Assembly (NCBI RefSeq): GCF_000722635.1
Contig: NZ_JOKH01000001.1
Span: forward strand, 351,845 to 415,844
Direction: 5' to 3'
Length of the DNA stretch: 64,000 bases
Origin: Endozoicomonas numazuensis
GTDB lineage: Bacteria > Pseudomonadota > Gammaproteobacteria > Pseudomonadales > Endozoicomonadaceae
The notes beneath the pieces are model-generated. The model had not been told where the DNA came from, made no database searches, and saw nothing but the letters and a program-made list of their open reading frames with translations. A program made the translations under genes and the position numbers. Shown here in pieces: positions 42,686 to 48,929 of this stretch; within the stretch, counting starts at the first letter, position 1; the number at the start of each line of letters is the position of its first letter.

Positions 42686-43000
42686 AAAAAGTTACCAGGG
42701 GAAATTCAAGAAAATTTGGGGGGGATTATAAAGCCCGACCTGTGTTGACACCAGCATTATGCCCGACTGCTCTCCCCGGGTTTATACCGACCCTAACCAC
42801 AACATCAGGATAACAGACCACATGTTGCCTCCTAGACAATCAGACACATAAGTTTGAGAAAAAGATTTTGCCAGAACGGAAAAGATGAAAAAATAACCAG
42901 CGTATGAATCCAAATAACGATTTCAGCAGTATAAGTATGCAATAGTGGGCCTGAATCTCTTTCACCCACTTATATCAGTCAAATAAAAAAAAGAAAAACC
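42686..43000. promoter_or_regulatory. Divergent control region between ychF and the arsenosugar operon
   Basis: 315 bp, AT-rich towards the operon. I see no clear ArsR site. The first operon gene starts after a run aaaaaaagaaaaacc, with no good ribosome site. Confidence 0.35.
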
Positions 43001-43705
43001 ATGGGCCAAGGACTTAGCCACACGACCAACACAACTCTGGTGTTAGTTTGCAAAAAACCCGCCTTACATCAAGGCAAACAGCGCCTTGCTGCCGACATAG
43101 GCGCCGAGCAAGCATTAGCTGTGGCTCAATTACTGCTGTCTTGTGCTCTGGAAGACCTTTCAGATTGGCCAGGCAAGATTGCCATCGCGCCCGCCCACCC
43201 AGAAGACGATCAATGGGCGAGTCAGCTTCTGAAACACAGAAACTGCCTGGTAGTCCCCCAGGGCTCAGGCAACCTCGGTGAGCGTCTGAACCACATCGAC
43301 AATGAACTGAGACTTCGGGGAAAAGAAAACCTCATCTATATAGGCAGTGACTCCCCCACCCTCAGTTTCAAACAGCTCTCAGACACAGCACAAAAACTCC
43401 AGACATACGACACAGTATTTAGCAAGGCCCGTGATGGCGGCGTCACCGTCATGGCTAACCGAACTCCCTGGCCTGACCTTTCAAAACTGCCATGGAGCAC
43501 TGATTCTCTGGGAGCGTCACTGACTGACCTCTGTCGTCAATCCCATTTATCCGTTGGATATGCCCCTTCTGGTCAGGATGTTGATCACCTGAAAGATTTG
43601 CTTGGGGCGCTTCCAGAACTGAACAGTGACGACAGACCTGCCCGTATAGCACTGACAAAACATATTAAAACTGTTTTCAAACAAGGAATAACCTCTCATG
43701 CATGA
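43001..43705 (+). CDS. TIGR04282-type (DUF2064) glycosyltransferase of arsenosugar synthesis
   Basis: 234 residues. The N-terminal nucleotidyl/glycosyl-transferase-like fold shows VLVCKKPALHQGKQRLAADIG (in part), VVPQGSGNLGERLNHID, then LIYIGSDSPTLSFKQL (the DSP-type metal site, about 108-123) and DGGVTVMA. This family is named in NCBI/TIGRFAM models for arsenosugar biosynthesis and is almost always near ArsM and radical SAM genes, as here. It overlaps ArsM by eight bases. Exact donor and acceptor are unknown. Confidence 0.82.
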   Translation: MGQGLSHTTNTTLVLVCKKPALHQGKQRLAADIGAEQALAVAQLLLSCALEDLSDWPGKIAIAPAHPEDDQWASQLLKHRNCLVVPQGSGNLGERLNHIDNELRLRGKENLIYIGSDSPTLSFKQLSDTAQKLQTYDTVFSKARDGGVTVMANRTPWPDLSKLPWSTDSLGASLTDLCRQSHLSVGYAPSGQDVDHLKDLLGALPELNSDDRPARIALTKHIKTVFKQGITSHA

Positions 43706-44750
43706 AGCGGTACAGGATTACTACGGCAAGACTCTTCAGGGCAGCGATGATCTCCAGACCAATGCCTGCTGCACAGATACAGCCATGCCACGCTACCTGA
43801 AAAGTACCCTCTCCAACATTCATGATGAGGTTCTGAGCCATTACTACGGCTGCGGGCTGGTCTACCCCGAACAACTGCAAGGCGCCAGAATACTCGACCT
43901 TGGTTCGGGGTCGGGTCGAGACTGCTATGCCCTGGCACAAATGGTAGGAGAAGAAGGTTATGTTGTAGGCGTCGATATGACGGACGAACAGCTCGCCATA
44001 GCCAACCGACATGTAGAATATCACCGGGAAAAGTTCGGCTATTCAAACGCCAATACCGAATTCCATAAAGGCTATATCGAAAAGCTGGATCAACTGGATC
44101 TTGAAGAAAACAGCTTTGACATGATCATTTCTAACTGCGTGATCAACCTTTCTCCGGACAAAGAAGCGGTATTGAGAGAAGCCTGGCGCCTGCTGAAACC
44201 AGGTGGCGAATTTTATTTCTCTGACGTCTATTCCGATCGCCGTATTCCCGCCGAACTGGTCGATGACCCTGTACTGTACGGGGAATGTCTGAGTGGAGCC
44301 CTTTACTGGAATGATTTTTTAAATCTGGCTAAAAAAGCCGGTTTCACCGACCCCAGACTGGTAGAAGACAAACCCATCACTATCAACAACAGTGAGATAG
44401 AAGCCAAAGTCGGCGACATTCAGTTTTTCTCTGCCACTTATCGACTGTTTAAACTGCCAGAGCTGGAAAGTCATTGCGAAGATTATGGGCAGGCTGTCAT
44501 CTATAAAGGCACGATTGATCACCATCCCAGCACATTCAATCTGGATGGGCACCATCCCATCACCAAAGGCAAGGTTTTCCCGGTTTGCGGTAACACCTGG
44601 AGAATGCTGCACGATACGAGATTCCGGGAACATTTTGAGTTTATTGGGGATTTCAGCACCCATTACGGCATTTTTGATGGCTGCGGAACCGCACTCCCCT
44701 TCTCTTCTTCCACCGATAAAAACACAGGAAGTGATGGATCATGCTGCTGA
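43698..44750 (+). CDS. arsM: Arsenite S-adenosylmethionine methyltransferase
   Basis: 350 residues. The SAM-binding fold begins ARILDLGSGSGRDCYALA (about 66-82) and VVGVDMTDEQL. Cysteines expected to bind As(III) are in NACCTD (about 24-25), SNCVINLS (about 152) and YGECLSG (about 196), the ArsM pattern. The C terminus ends in a Gly-Ser-CC tail. It converts arsenite stepwise to methylarsenicals, giving dimethylarsenite for the radical SAM step. Its stop overlaps the next start by ten bases. Confidence 0.93.
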   Translation: MHEAVQDYYGKTLQGSDDLQTNACCTDTAMPRYLKSTLSNIHDEVLSHYYGCGLVYPEQLQGARILDLGSGSGRDCYALAQMVGEEGYVVGVDMTDEQLAIANRHVEYHREKFGYSNANTEFHKGYIEKLDQLDLEENSFDMIISNCVINLSPDKEAVLREAWRLLKPGGEFYFSDVYSDRRIPAELVDDPVLYGECLSGALYWNDFLNLAKKAGFTDPRLVEDKPITINNSEIEAKVGDIQFFSATYRLFKLPELESHCEDYGQAVIYKGTIDHHPSTFNLDGHHPITKGKVFPVCGNTWRMLHDTRFREHFEFIGDFSTHYGIFDGCGTALPFSSSTDKNTGSDGSCC

Positions 44751-45670
44751 CAGGAGCGCCTGAGAGTAACAAAAGCCAGGACTGGCACTTAACGCCAGAT
44801 GGCAGCCCCAGAGGCTACATCAAGCCCCACCAACTAAAAGAGCTCTGGTTTCACACTGGAACCCGCTGCAATCTTTCCTGCAGCTTTTGCCTGGAAGGTT
44901 CGAGTCCGGCCAGCAAAAGGCTGGACGCCCCCAGTCTTAACGAAATAAAACCCTACATTGATGAAGCCCTTGAACTCGATGTAGAACAGTTCTCGTTTAC
45001 AGGTGGCGAACCTTTTGTCATTAAAGACATTATCCGGATTCTGGATTACGCCTCCCAACATCGTCCCTGCCTGGTTTTGACCAATGGCACAACGCCCATG
45101 ATCAAAAGGCTGGATGAGCTGGCTCAGTTGAGCAATAACCCATACCCCATTTCCCTGAGAGTCAGCCTGGATCATCCAAACGCTGAACAGCATGATGCAG
45201 GACGTGGTGAGGACAGTTTTGCTACCGCACTTTCCGGACTGAAACTACTGCATGAAAAGGGCTTTAACATCTCCGTTGCAAGACATATGGAGAAGGACGA
45301 AAACACGGCAATGATTGAACAGGCCTTCAGGGATCTGTTTGAACTGAATGGTTTGCCCGTCAATTTAAAACAGGTGGCCTTTCCCGACTTTCTGCCACCC
45401 GGTTCTTTACCGGATGTTCCCCATGTCAGCACAGATTGCATGACCCGCTACCAGACAGAAGAGAGTCGTCGTCAATTCATGTGTGCTTTTTCCAAAATGA
45501 TGGTCAAACAGAATGGGGAAATGCAGGTTTATGCCTGCACACTGGTGGATGACGATACCGAGTACAACCTGGGCAGTAATTTACGAACGAGCCTGAATAA
45601 AAGCATCAGCATGAAACACCACCGCTGCTACAGCTGTTTTGCTTTTGGCTCTTCATGCAGCGAGCTGTAA
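44741..45670 (+). CDS. Radical SAM protein, probable arsenosugar step (ArsS role)
   Basis: 309 residues. The 4Fe-4S motif is TRCNLSCSFCLEGSS (C-x3-C-x2-C, about 43-50), followed by the SAM-contact FTGGEP (about 87). In the C terminus Cys occur at FMCAFSK, VYACTL, and RCYSCFAFGSSCSEL, a pattern that could hold a second iron-sulfur cluster (SPASM-like). In cyanobacteria ArsS adds a 5'-deoxyadenosyl group to dimethylarsenite; position next to ArsM suggests the same job. The sequence does not look to me like the canonical ArsS family, so it may be a different subfamily. Confidence 0.8.
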   Translation: MLLTGAPESNKSQDWHLTPDGSPRGYIKPHQLKELWFHTGTRCNLSCSFCLEGSSPASKRLDAPSLNEIKPYIDEALELDVEQFSFTGGEPFVIKDIIRILDYASQHRPCLVLTNGTTPMIKRLDELAQLSNNPYPISLRVSLDHPNAEQHDAGRGEDSFATALSGLKLLHEKGFNISVARHMEKDENTAMIEQAFRDLFELNGLPVNLKQVAFPDFLPPGSLPDVPHVSTDCMTRYQTEESRRQFMCAFSKMMVKQNGEMQVYACTLVDDDTEYNLGSNLRTSLNKSISMKHHRCYSCFAFGSSCSEL

Positions 45671-45697
45671 TCATCCGTTTGATAAAAGGAATTTTTG

Positions 45698-46135
45698 ATG
45701 GATACCACCCGGATACTGTTTCTTTGCACGGGCAACTCCTGTCGCAGCCAGATGGCGGAAGGCTGGGCCAGACACATATTGCCTTCAGACTATGAAACCT
45801 TCTCAGCCGGTATTGAAGCCCATGGACTGAATCCTTCAGCGGTCAAGGTGATGCAGGAAGCCGGTATCGATATCAGCCGGCAGCAGTCACAAACTCTAAA
45901 TGACCTGGATCAGAAACAGTTCGATTTTATTATTACCGTGTGTGATCACGCCCATAAAACCTGTCCAACACCCGAACAGGGGCAGATCATCCTCAAACGT
46001 TTTGATGACCCTCCCCGACTGGCTGAGTCGGTAAAAACAGAAGAAGAATCATTAGCAATCTATCGTCGTGTAAGGGACGAGATCAGAGTCTGGGTGAATC
46101 AGCTTCCCAGTCAGATCCAACAGATGTCTAATTAA
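45698..46135 (+). CDS. arsC: Arsenate reductase, low-molecular-weight phosphatase type
   Basis: 145 residues from the ATG at 45698, with aaaagga seven bases upstream. The P-loop is LCTGNSCRSQMAEG (nucleophile Cys about residue 11), and two more cysteines in TVCDHAHKTCPT (about 83 and 90) give the three-cysteine relay of thioredoxin-coupled ArsC. It reduces arsenate to arsenite, supplying the substrate for ArsM. 27 bases separate it from genes on either side. Confidence 0.9.
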   Translation: MDTTRILFLCTGNSCRSQMAEGWARHILPSDYETFSAGIEAHGLNPSAVKVMQEAGIDISRQQSQTLNDLDQKQFDFIITVCDHAHKTCPTPEQGQIILKRFDDPPRLAESVKTEEESLAIYRRVRDEIRVWVNQLPSQIQQMSN

Positions 46136-46162
46136 TCAGAAGAACAATTATAAGGAAATCCA

Positions 46163-47023
46163 ATGCTGGCAGTGATTGGTGGAACAGGCATTTATAGCCT
46201 GGATGGACTTGAAGTATTAGATGAGCAGACGATTGAAACGCCCTTTGGCCCTCACTCAGGTCCAATAACGACAGGTCTCTTCAATCAACAGAAGCTGTTG
46301 TTTTTACCCCGACACGGGAGCGGCCATGAACTTCTGCCCCATGAAATCAATTACCGAGCCAATATCTGGGCGTTAAAAAGTCTGGGCGCTACCCGGATGA
46401 TAGGCCTTTCTGCGGTAGGCAGCCTGCAAGAGGAAATTGCGCCAGGAGAGTTATCTCTGGTCAGTCAGTACTTCGATTTCGTAAAAGGACATCGAGAAAA
46501 AAGCTTTTTTGGTCAGGGTCTGGTCGCTCATGTTTCCACCGCTCTGCCAAGCTGTGATCATCAGGCAAAACAACTTATTAATGCCGCCAATTCTGCTGAC
46601 ATTAGCTTACATCAGGAGAAAACCTATGCCTGTGTCGATGGACCCAGGCTAGGCAGTCGGGCAGAAAGCCTGTTCCTGAAAAATGCTGCTCAGTGCGATG
46701 TTGTGGGCATGACCAATGTACCTGAAGCCTTTCTCGCCCGAGAAGCTCAGCTTTGTTATACAACCATCGCGATTGCTACTGACTACGACTGCTGGAAGGA
46801 AGATCCTTCAGCTCATGCCACCGTTGAGCAGATCATTGCCAGATACGACAGAAGCCTGGCATTGTCCAAAGCGCTTTTAGGGCAGTATCTGAAACAGCAG
46901 GAAGAGACACCTCACGACAACACTCAATGCAACTGCAGGAATGCCTTGAAATCAGCGGTACTCTCTTCTGAGAACAACCTGAGTCAAGAGCAGAAAGCAT
47001 TGCTGGAAGTCCTTCAAAATTAA
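46163..47023 (+). CDS. MTA-phosphorylase-family enzyme (arsenosugar adenine removal)
   Basis: 286 residues. Motifs of the S-methyl-5'-thioadenosine/thioinosine phosphorylase family: VIGGTGIYSLDGLEVL, the phosphate-binding LPRHGSGHELLPHEINYRAN (about 50-70), VDGPRLGSRAE and VGMTNVPEAFLAREAQLCYTT (in part) with ATDYDCW. In this operon the natural substrate is likely the adenosylated dimethylarsenical, releasing adenine and a ribose-1-phosphate. The last 40 residues extend beyond the typical family end. Confidence 0.87.
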   Translation: MLAVIGGTGIYSLDGLEVLDEQTIETPFGPHSGPITTGLFNQQKLLFLPRHGSGHELLPHEINYRANIWALKSLGATRMIGLSAVGSLQEEIAPGELSLVSQYFDFVKGHREKSFFGQGLVAHVSTALPSCDHQAKQLINAANSADISLHQEKTYACVDGPRLGSRAESLFLKNAAQCDVVGMTNVPEAFLAREAQLCYTTIAIATDYDCWKEDPSAHATVEQIIARYDRSLALSKALLGQYLKQQEETPHDNTQCNCRNALKSAVLSSENNLSQEQKALLEVLQN

Positions 47024-47025
47024 CC

Positions 47026-47754
47026 ATGTCCAGCTTATGTGACCCTCTCCTGTCAATCGTTGTGCCACTCGGCCCCAGTGAACCCGAGTGGCCACTCCTT
47101 CTTGACCAATTGAACCCTCTTCCTGCCGGCAGCGAAGTTATCCTTGTTGGCTATCAGGACGAGCAGCGCCCAGCCAAACTGGATGAACTTCCAGCTTCTT
47201 TGATTCACCTCGAGTGGACTTGGTGTACCACTGAACAAGGACGCGCCTATCAGCTCAATACAGGAGCAGAGAGAGCCACAGGAGATTACGTCTGGTTTCT
47301 GCATGCAGACACAATACTGAACAGAGAAAATGTTCAGAGCTTACTGAATGCCATTGATCAATATCCAGAACGATTGTTCTATTTCAATCTCTGGTTTCAT
47401 GACAAAGAAACTCTTTGGCTATCCATTAACGAGTGGGGAGCCCGATTCCGCTCCGATGTTCTCGGATGCCCATACGGAGATCAAGGATTTTGCATCAGCA
47501 GAACACAGTTTCTCGACTTGAAAGGTTATCCCACCCAATCGCTATACGGTGAGGACCACGTATTCGTCTGGAAAGCCCGGCAAAACAAAATCCACCTGCA
47601 CACCTGTGGCACCAGGCTGGGCACCAGCGCAAGAAAGTACCATGATGCAGGCTGGCTAAATCTGACCCTGAAATACCAGCACCTCTGGCTCAAGCAGGCA
47701 GCACCAGAATTTTTTAAATGGCTCAGGATAAAACTGAATAGAAACAGGGTCTAA
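47026..47754 (+). CDS. TIGR04283-type family 2 glycosyltransferase
   Basis: 242 residues. The GT-A fold begins LSIVVPLGPSEPEWP; QGRAYQLNTGAERATGDYVW (about 72-91) and the FLHADTIL metal site (about 92-99), then GDQGFCISRTQF (about 150) and GEDHVFVWKAR (about 175) match TIGR04283, the second glycosyltransferase associated with arsenosugar clusters. It starts two bases after the phosphorylase stop. It would transfer a sugar to or from the arsenoribose. Confidence 0.85.
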   Translation: MSSLCDPLLSIVVPLGPSEPEWPLLLDQLNPLPAGSEVILVGYQDEQRPAKLDELPASLIHLEWTWCTTEQGRAYQLNTGAERATGDYVWFLHADTILNRENVQSLLNAIDQYPERLFYFNLWFHDKETLWLSINEWGARFRSDVLGCPYGDQGFCISRTQFLDLKGYPTQSLYGEDHVFVWKARQNKIHLHTCGTRLGTSARKYHDAGWLNLTLKYQHLWLKQAAPEFFKWLRIKLNRNRV

Positions 47755-47814
47755 ACAGCTCCTATTACCTCCACTGGTCAGATCCTGCCTATGTACTAGG
47801 CTTGTCTGATCATA

Positions 47815-48843
47815 GTGCAAACTGAAGCCAGTAGCCGAATGCCCGACAAAAGTAAAACCATTGCCGTTATTTGCGGCGGCCTGTCCCCTGAAGCCGATGT
47901 CTCCAGACTTTCTGCAAGCCGCATTACCCCCTGCCTGGAAGAGCATTATGGAAATGTTGTCCATCTGGAACTGGACGCAACGCTTGGAGAACAACTCATA
48001 GCTCACCAGGTTGATGTTGCCTTTCCTGTAGCCCACGGCCCCTATGGCGAAGATGGCCGCCTGCAGGGATTACTCGATATTATGGGCGTCCCCTACGTAG
48101 GCTCTGGCGCTCTGGCCAGCGCCTGCTCTCTGGATAAAGTGGTGACCAAGCGTTTGCTGCAGCCCTCAGGGATAACCATGGCAAAAGACAGGGTCGTCTA
48201 TCGTAACGAAAGCCATGAAGACGCCGCCCTCGACTGCATAGAAACCCTGGGACATAAAGTCATCATTAAGCCCTCGGGACAAGGTTCCGGCATTGGCGTA
48301 CAGTTTGCCATGGGTTACGAAGACCTGATGGGCAAACTGAAAACCGGCCTGCAAATGGACGATAAACTGTTGGTTGAAGAGTTCATTACTGGTAGGGAAA
48401 TCACCGCCGGCGTTTTACACATGGATGATTATCAGGTTTTGCCCGTCACCGAAATCACCACGCCAGATGGCGCCTGGTATGACTATGTCCACCGTTATAC
48501 ACCGGGTCTGAGCGACCACGTTATTCCTGCCAGAATCTCTGACGAACAGTATCGAAAAGTGCAGGAAATAGCACTTAAAGCTCACCAGACCCTGGGCTGT
48601 CAAGACCTCAGCCGTTCTGACTTTATTGTGCCTGAAACAGGTGAGCCTGTTTTCGCAGAACTCAATAACTTACCCGGAATGACTCCAACCAGTTTATTTC
48701 CAGACGGAGCGAGACACGCAGGAATCCCCTTTGATGCCCTGATTTGCAAACTGGTGGATCAAGCTTTAAAACGGGGAGAGAATATGCGTAATGGCAGGGA
48801 ATACTGGCCGATCCCCAAGCTGGATATCCACCAACCGCTCTAG
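47815..48843 (+). CDS. D-Ala-D-Ala-ligase-like ATP-grasp enzyme
   Basis: 342 residues (GTG at 47815) or 334 from the ATG at 47839; neither has a strong ribosome site. ATP-grasp motifs: VICGGLSPEADVS, AHGPYGEDGRLQGLLDIMGV (about 73-93), VIIKPSGQGSGIGVQF (about 150-165) and the Mg-binding ELNNLPGMTPTSLFPD. It is close to Ddl but GPYGEDG and SGQGSGIGV differ from the usual HGxxGEDG/REGSSVGV. A 60-84 bp gap from the glycosyltransferase suggests the same operon. It could be a second Ddl or a ligase that joins an amino acid to the arsenical. Confidence 0.78.
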   Translation: MQTEASSRMPDKSKTIAVICGGLSPEADVSRLSASRITPCLEEHYGNVVHLELDATLGEQLIAHQVDVAFPVAHGPYGEDGRLQGLLDIMGVPYVGSGALASACSLDKVVTKRLLQPSGITMAKDRVVYRNESHEDAALDCIETLGHKVIIKPSGQGSGIGVQFAMGYEDLMGKLKTGLQMDDKLLVEEFITGREITAGVLHMDDYQVLPVTEITTPDGAWYDYVHRYTPGLSDHVIPARISDEQYRKVQEIALKAHQTLGCQDLSRSDFIVPETGEPVFAELNNLPGMTPTSLFPDGARHAGIPFDALICKLVDQALKRGENMRNGREYWPIPKLDIHQPL

Positions 48844-48868: not shown

Positions 48869-48929
48869 CGTTCGTGCTGAGCCTGTTGAAGTGCATCAAC
48901 CGCATCCTTCGACAGGCTCAGGATGAACG
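48869..48929. repeat. Palindromic repeat with cctgagcctgtcgaag-type core
   Basis: Left arm cgttcgtgctgagcctgttg and right arm caggctcaggatgaacg are inverted repeats around a short centre. The core gacaggctcaggatgaacg is a dispersed palindrome found in many proteobacteria. It lies just after the arsenosugar operon. Confidence 0.8.

Follow-up and report, generated by a model that had tools for sequence, protein, structure and literature searches.

A six-gene cassette of Endozoicomonas numazuensis that likely encodes an arsenosugar-type pathway

A stretch of 64,000 nucleotides from Endozoicomonas numazuensis (contig NZ_JOKH01000001.1, positions 351,845 to 415,844), here called the window, carries a row of six genes at 43001-47754 on the + strand. 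They encode a TIGR04282-like protein, an arsenite methyltransferase (ArsM), a radical S-adenosylmethionine (SAM) protein, an arsenate reductase (ArsC), an enzyme resembling methylthioadenosine (MTA) phosphorylase (MTAP) and a TIGR04283-like glycosyltransferase. Gene linkage across species makes an arsenosugar-type pathway the likely and best reading, and we put the probability that the cassette makes an arsenosugar at about 0.6.

The six-gene row is a real conserved unit. It is beyond chance because its order and place are kept in 4 of the 11 genomes of the genus (G000, G019, G027 and G028; G numbers denote genomes, L numbers denote extracted loci, and G000 is the window's own genome, of 6.34 Mb in 31 contigs).

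In the proposed pathway, ArsC would convert arsenate to arsenite, which ArsM would methylate to dimethylarsenite. The radical SAM protein would then place the 5′-deoxyadenosyl group of SAM on the arsenic of dimethylarsenite. On the MTAP-like enzyme phosphate would displace adenine, yielding 5-deoxy-5-(dimethylarsino)ribose-1-phosphate, and the TIGR04282-like protein would join this arsenic sugar phosphate to a nucleotide to give a nucleotide sugar. Finally, the TIGR04283-like glycosyltransferase would pass the arsenic-ribose to an acceptor, e.g. glycerol or glycerol phosphate. The cassette would most likely serve detoxification by conversion.

Gene linkage and exchange with ArsS

Relatives of the window's radical SAM protein split into type A, at least 51% identical to it, and type B, about 33-37% identical. 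A genome scan for type A gave 553 relatives, and partner counts refer to the best 80 (52-68% identical). Partners were sought with hidden Markov models (HMMs) made from proteins of the window plus one VTT/FAD protein. The loci contain TIGR04282-like genes in 53 cases, TIGR04283-like in 48, VTT/FAD in 41, ArsM in 33, MTAP in 16 and ArsC in 6, all lower bounds because contigs often break off nearby. Of the 80 loci, 68 have one or more of TIGR04282-like, TIGR04283-like, ArsM and MTAP, and at 69 one of these four or VTT/FAD lies on the same strand within 400 bases. A second type A set, outside the 80, has partners at 12 of 17 loci. No partner was found in the controls, namely 10 short MoaA loci (3.2-3.4 kb), 6 ddl loci of 17 kb each and the rest of the window.

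The 80 genomes listed are mostly Proteobacteria. Record titles of type A relatives include Marinobacterium, Neptuniibacter, Amphritea, Motiliproteus, Colwellia, Marinobacter, Nitrosomonas, Nitrosospira and Methylotenera; other phyla appear in the titles of a few metagenome-assembled genomes. Judging by such named relatives, the window's bacterium is probably marine. The VTT/FAD genes (L055:9491-11647 and similar ones at the 41 loci) encode a VTT-domain protein fused or adjacent to a pyridine nucleotide-disulphide oxidoreductase, near the radical SAM gene. This protein, which is not found at the window's cassette, may act on or move an arsenical.

The same partners surround some catalogued ArsS (TIGR04167) genes. 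Twenty ArsS loci, picked by choice and not at random from 116 genomes with TIGR04167 at E ≤ 1e-60, contain TIGR04282-like genes in 8 cases, TIGR04283-like in 7, ArsM in 7 (2 over 300 bits), MTAP in 3 and VTT/FAD in 9. L155, from the same taxonomic order as the window's genome, has ArsS at 462.5/300, TIGR04282 at 206.9/134, TIGR04283 at 234.6/182 and MTAP at 314.2/274.85 (NCBIfam scores are given as bits/curated cut-off), and its ArsM, 4 kb off, is 65% identical to the window's. In L159, a TIGR04282-like protein 48% identical to the window's lies 3.6 kb on from ArsS (447.6/300).

In three genomes of the family (G010, G011 and G015), a type B protein is paired with an MTAP of the window's group. 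Six type B loci (~35% identical; L035, L036, L037, L096, L097 and L098) have both TIGR04282-like and TIGR04283-like genes, and most of them MTAP as well. In two phylum samples, radical SAM proteins of type A or B (39 of 398 genomes) and TIGR04167 (116 of 396) never occur together in one genome; the chance of zero overlap under independence is 6e-7, a value that overstates the case, since related genomes are not independent. It seems that the radical enzyme is exchangeable between type A and ArsS, the partner set staying the same.

Enzymes of the proposed steps and rival readings

Judged from its sequence, the radical SAM protein (309 residues, PF04055) belongs to a separate family, type A, outside catalogued ArsS and without an NCBIfam model of its own. 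An identity as catalogued ArsS was rejected on score (TIGR04167, 50.5/300), and the best match is NF049973 (117.1/380). TIGR04167 is over its cut-off in none of the 38 genomes of the family, and, among the NCBIfam families listed, no cut-off is reached by the other proteins scanned, three of type A and two of type B. Relatives at E ≤ 1e-20 occur in 8 of 369 genomes of a class sample and in 39 of 398 of a phylum sample, the window's genome being in both and two of the 39 matching over half the protein only. In a tree of 53 thinned rows, type A, type B and ArsS form separate groups with SH-aLRT (approximate likelihood-ratio test) values of 99, 83 and 99, from a short search with long branches flagged.

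The AlphaFold2 (AF2) model of the protein has a mean local confidence (pLDDT) of 90 and a predicted template modelling score (pTM) of 0.89. Its nearest structures are SPASM/twitch enzymes (SkfB, BlsE, SuiB and EpeE) and MoaA, which say little on the substrate. Our own radical SAM HMM gives 107-119 bits to MoaA and 130-156 bits to ArsS, and it places genes rather than separating families. A full-length profile match of a mixed A/B set to ArsS (5.1e-21) was rejected as proof of kinship, as MoaA equals it for type A alone. We take the protein as a stand-in for ArsS mainly because the partner genes are common to both; the equivalence is not evident from its sequence.

The earlier note, made from the DNA alone, called the TIGR04282-like protein a glycosyltransferase. 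The superfamily is right (TIGR04282, 112.8/134, with PF09837; 114.8 and 117.9 bits for two type A relatives), but the predicted fold and residues look like those of a nucleotidyltransferase. The only match in a PDB sequence search is 3cgx, labelled a putative nucleotide-diphospho-sugar transferase by its depositors. After 3cgx, the fold matches of the AF2 model (pLDDT 95.7) include Rv2983, 3-phosphoglycerate guanylyltransferase, CMP-Kdo synthetase, TarI, IspD and GlmU, and those listed (top 50 of 1,589) are nucleotidyltransferases or proteins thought to be such. K26, R28, D117, D193 and D195 are among the invariant residues of a 35-row alignment. A fold and conserved acidic and basic residues of the CofC-like type are thus present, and the match to the CofC model itself is weak (TIGR03552, 20.5/105). 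A nucleotidyltransferase seems likelier than a glycosyltransferase, and the protein's database label is probably wrong. Activation of a sugar-1-phosphate would fit between the MTAP and family 2 glycosyltransferase steps.

The MTAP-like enzyme scores 248.5/274.85 with TIGR01694, matches solved MTAPs over its full length (E 2.5e-63) and is the single MTAP match in the window's genome at E ≤ 1e-10. Among the 11 genomes of the genus, MTAP occurs in exactly the 4 that carry the radical SAM gene; likewise, the two genes coincide in 3 of 12 genomes of the genus that comprises G007-G018. Few independent events are involved, the genes being one cassette. G003, G030 and G031 have MTAP matches on contigs other than that of the radical SAM gene, which we take to be of the thioinosine type from their look. 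Where readable, MTAPs of type A clusters (all but L238) and of G010, G011 and G015 have GPRLG and mostly H(V/I)STA, whereas archaeal MTAP, those beside catalogued ArsS and those of three alpha-type B loci have GPxFS and HV(S/A)(M/L)A. Cluster MTAPs form one group of 27 rows, some of them duplicates or fragments (SH-aLRT 92). The altered segments, presumably near the base and the 5′ pocket, are candidates for accommodating a bulkier 5′ group.

For ArsM, the best PDB sequence match is the arsenite methyltransferase 5evj (E 7e-109), and C24, C52, C147 and C197, which presumably include the arsenic-binding cysteines, are kept in 45 of 45 rows, so that both the match to solved arsenite methyltransferases and the conserved cysteines are in place. 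It scores 97.2/400 with the arsenosugar ArsM model NF038099 and best with NF008823 (184.9/263), and the ArsM of L155, beside catalogued ArsS, reaches only 91.7 with NF038099. All 45 rows also share a Cys-Cys pair at the ArsM C-terminus (44742-44747), a hint that it may act as a thiol relay. ArsC (TIGR02691, 143.3/174.3) has Cys 11, 16, 83 and 90 as expected, with roles and a thioredoxin-type pattern that we presume. The TIGR04283-like protein (PF00535) scores 157.8/182 with TIGR04283, relatives reaching 188.5 (L204) and 157.4 (L181), and a PDB sequence search with it gave nothing useful. All six pathway proteins are below curated NCBIfam cut-offs; the names first given to them agree with family scans at the superfamily level.

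It had also been claimed that no ars regulator or efflux pump is present. ACR3 and ArsB are indeed absent from the genome (ArsP, ArsJ and ArsK were not among the pumps searched) and the window has no ArsR-type HTH_5 match, but four such matches occur elsewhere in the genome. Because ACR3 and ArsB are absent, conversion may be the way in which this genome handles arsenic.

Several results weigh against the arsenosugar reading. None of the four partners is found at 12 of the 80 best type A loci, ArsM is near only 33, and only 6 of 18 type B loci have a partner. The non-overlap of radical SAM types is confounded by relatedness. The type A core is no nearer to ArsS (profile match 1.2e-11) than to MoaA (1.9e-12). 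In the cysteine-rich C-terminal part, five cysteines align in order with ArsS, but the match is weak (E 0.0032, probability 10%; 0.13 for the MoaA control and 0.046 for type B against ArsS). Lastly, no MTA nucleosidase of the window's genome reaches the cut-off of 73.8 bits (the best has 58), while 9 of the 38 family genomes have one that does.

The MTAP may simply salvage MTA, because the genome has no MTA nucleosidase over cut-off. This objection is tempered by five cassette-free congeners (G020-G023 and G026), which have neither an MTAP match nor an MTA nucleosidase over cut-off. The same absence would suit a radical SAM protein that, like ArsL, moves the 3-amino-3-carboxypropyl group of SAM to arsenic. 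That transfer would leave MTA for the MTAP to clear, and the product would be arsinothricin-like, perhaps glycosylated. The arsQML cluster also pairs ArsM with a radical SAM gene (PMC8552651). However, ArsL is described as having 428 residues with its CX3CX2C cysteines at 194-201 (same source), as against C43-C50 in the shorter protein here, and its model is not among the 25 best of 52 NCBIfam matches of the latter. An ArsL identity is not favoured, as length and motif place differ. The TIGR04282 and TIGR04283 partners, moreover, are those of catalogued ArsS clusters, and we regard this chemistry as unlikely.

The limited presence of ArsM and the core that is no closer to ArsS than to MoaA would also be expected if two modules merely adjoined, arsC-arsM giving simple detoxification and the radical SAM, MTAP and transferase genes making an arsenic-free modified sugar. 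We consider this improbable, since arsM overlaps the genes on either side and the same gene set, with a closely related ArsM, surrounds catalogued ArsS. There is likewise only a small chance that the pathway ends at, or branches before, free or phosphorylated arsenic-ribose, with the TIGR04282- and TIGR04283-like proteins building another glycoconjugate, e.g. an arsenolipid head group: MTAP is near 16 of the 80 loci and some loci lack both transferases, but the two transferase genes are the commonest partners.

The arsenosugar pathway originally proposed for this locus remains the best reading on gene linkage across species, with a radical SAM protein that is not a catalogued ArsS. The earlier note had named families unrelated to arsenic clusters as what would speak against it; type A relatives do lie beside arsM and the two transferase genes, though arsM at a minority of loci. 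A wider claim is that a second arsenic-adenosylating radical SAM family replaces ArsS in many bacteria, together with a complete later route of specialised phosphorylase, mislabelled nucleotidyltransferase and glycosyltransferase. We hold this tentatively, at slightly worse than even odds, given that both the lack of an MTA nucleosidase over cut-off and the type B counts speak against it.

Extent of the cassette and its surroundings

The locus was at first taken as a seven-gene operon ending with an ATP-grasp gene. The seven open reading frames, their common strand, the overlaps of 8 and 10 bases and the following gaps of 27, 27 and 2 bases are as described, but the seventh gene was rejected from the operon. 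Its product passes the D-alanine--D-alanine ligase model, and every one of the 11 genus genomes has an orthologue of at least 60% identity, including the 7 that lack the cassette. Six cassette-free stretches were taken (L115-L120), four from the genus (G026, G025, G024 and G020) and two from the family (G004 and G008). In all six, pth lies 20 bases to 3.3 kb from the ligase gene (ddl), and in five ychF flanks the ligase gene opposite pth, at no more than 3.5 kb; the stretch taken for L119 showed no ychF. None of the six contains cassette genes.

In G026, 170 bases separate ychF from ddl, and this spacer aligns with the window on either flank of the six genes, which makes this one congener a near-empty site. 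Because the ligase keeps its place in cassette-free relatives and this spacer matches both flanks, the unit is set at six genes (Table 1). The difference could be either a gain in the four carriers or a loss in G026. The cassette is not foreign-looking, with 49.1% GC as against 47.2% in the remaining window.

Table 1 Features at the cassette locus
Feature	Position	Strand	Basis
TIGR04282/DUF2064-like protein, read as sugar-phosphate nucleotidyltransferase	43001..43705	+	TIGR04282, PF09837, AF2 fold, invariant residues
ArsM, arsenite methyltransferase	43698..44750	+	PDB 5evj match, conserved Cys
Type A radical SAM protein, proposed to adenosylate dimethylarsenite	44741..45670	+	PF04055, CX3CX2C at C43-C50
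ArsC, arsenate reductase of thioredoxin-coupled type	45698..46135	+	TIGR02691, Cys 11/16/83/90; in-frame TTG at 45695, from which the open reading frame is counted
MTAP-like enzyme, proposed to form arsenic-ribose-1-phosphate	46163..47023	+	TIGR01694, cluster signature
TIGR04283-like family 2 glycosyltransferase	47026..47754	+	TIGR04283, PF00535
Cassette, approximate limits against the near-empty G026 site	42764..47769	+	Alignment read by eye
D-alanine--D-alanine ligase, neighbour outside the cassette	47815..48843	+	NF002378, 295.8/243

Part of the sequence upstream of the cassette aligns among the four carriers, and no operator was recognised in it. A promoter scan was uninformative, with 2 found against 7.3 expected, and PADLOC gave weak viperin-type matches at most. 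Directly 3′ of the ligase gene, an inverted repeat of 23 bases (48869-48929) is 87% complementary with a 15-base loop. In the ddl orthologues of G003, G006, G007, G009, G010, G014, G016, G017 and G026, one stop codon was counted within the matched stretch, which may be the gene's own end.

Meaning and comparison with known systems

Marine algae and animals contain arsenosugars as one of their main kinds of organic arsenic compound. In the open-licence literature searched, which leaves most subscription papers outside, named enzymes cover arsenic methylation and adenosylation only; no enzymes are assigned to the steps after adenosylation, and this radical SAM family is not described. What those sources give is that Synechocystis ArsS with ArsM begins arsenosugar synthesis, the radical SAM step adenosylating arsenic (PMC8552651, PMC12159101), and that a nucleosidase step is proposed for an algal arsenolipid (PMC10456119). 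Other papers list two 'arsenosugar biosynthesis glycosyltransferase' genes in Modicisalibacter (PMC13077682), show E. numazuensis in an AS3MT tree (PMC5398495) and name a TIGR04282 gene fbiD (PMC8801600).

The kind of pathway is thus known, and what is new is the enzyme family, the order of phosphorylase, nucleotidyltransferase and glycosyltransferase, and the compact layout. With a heterotroph cassette that offers candidate enzymes for all later steps, one of them probably under a wrong database label, these steps would become testable singly. If the reading is true, arsenosugar producers would extend to many bacteria whose radical SAM gene bears a generic label.

Among known systems, the ArsM-ArsS arsenosugar pathway (Synechocystis; TIGR04167, TIGR04282 and TIGR04283) resembles the cassette in combining ArsM with a radical SAM enzyme, and some catalogued ArsS loci (L155 and L156) have the same transferase and MTAP partners. 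The window differs from it in a radical SAM protein that groups apart from ArsS and in six genes packed as one unit with arsC. The arsinothricin cluster arsQML is likewise small, with ArsM beside the radical SAM gene of ArsL (PMC8552651), but ArsL and the window's radical SAM protein differ in length and in where the motif lies, and the window's cassette has transferases and MTAP and no arsQ. Compared with MTA phosphorylase (TIGR01694), the window's enzyme matches over its full length and keeps the TDYD motif, whereas it has HxSTA and GPRLG instead of HVSMADP and GPxFS and falls into its own group with other cluster members. The TIGR04282-like protein shares its predicted fold with CofC/FbiD-type nucleotidyltransferases, Rv2983 and 3-phosphoglycerate guanylyltransferase being among its best PDB matches, although it is 16-18% identical to them and its best match, 3cgx, is an uncharacterised protein.

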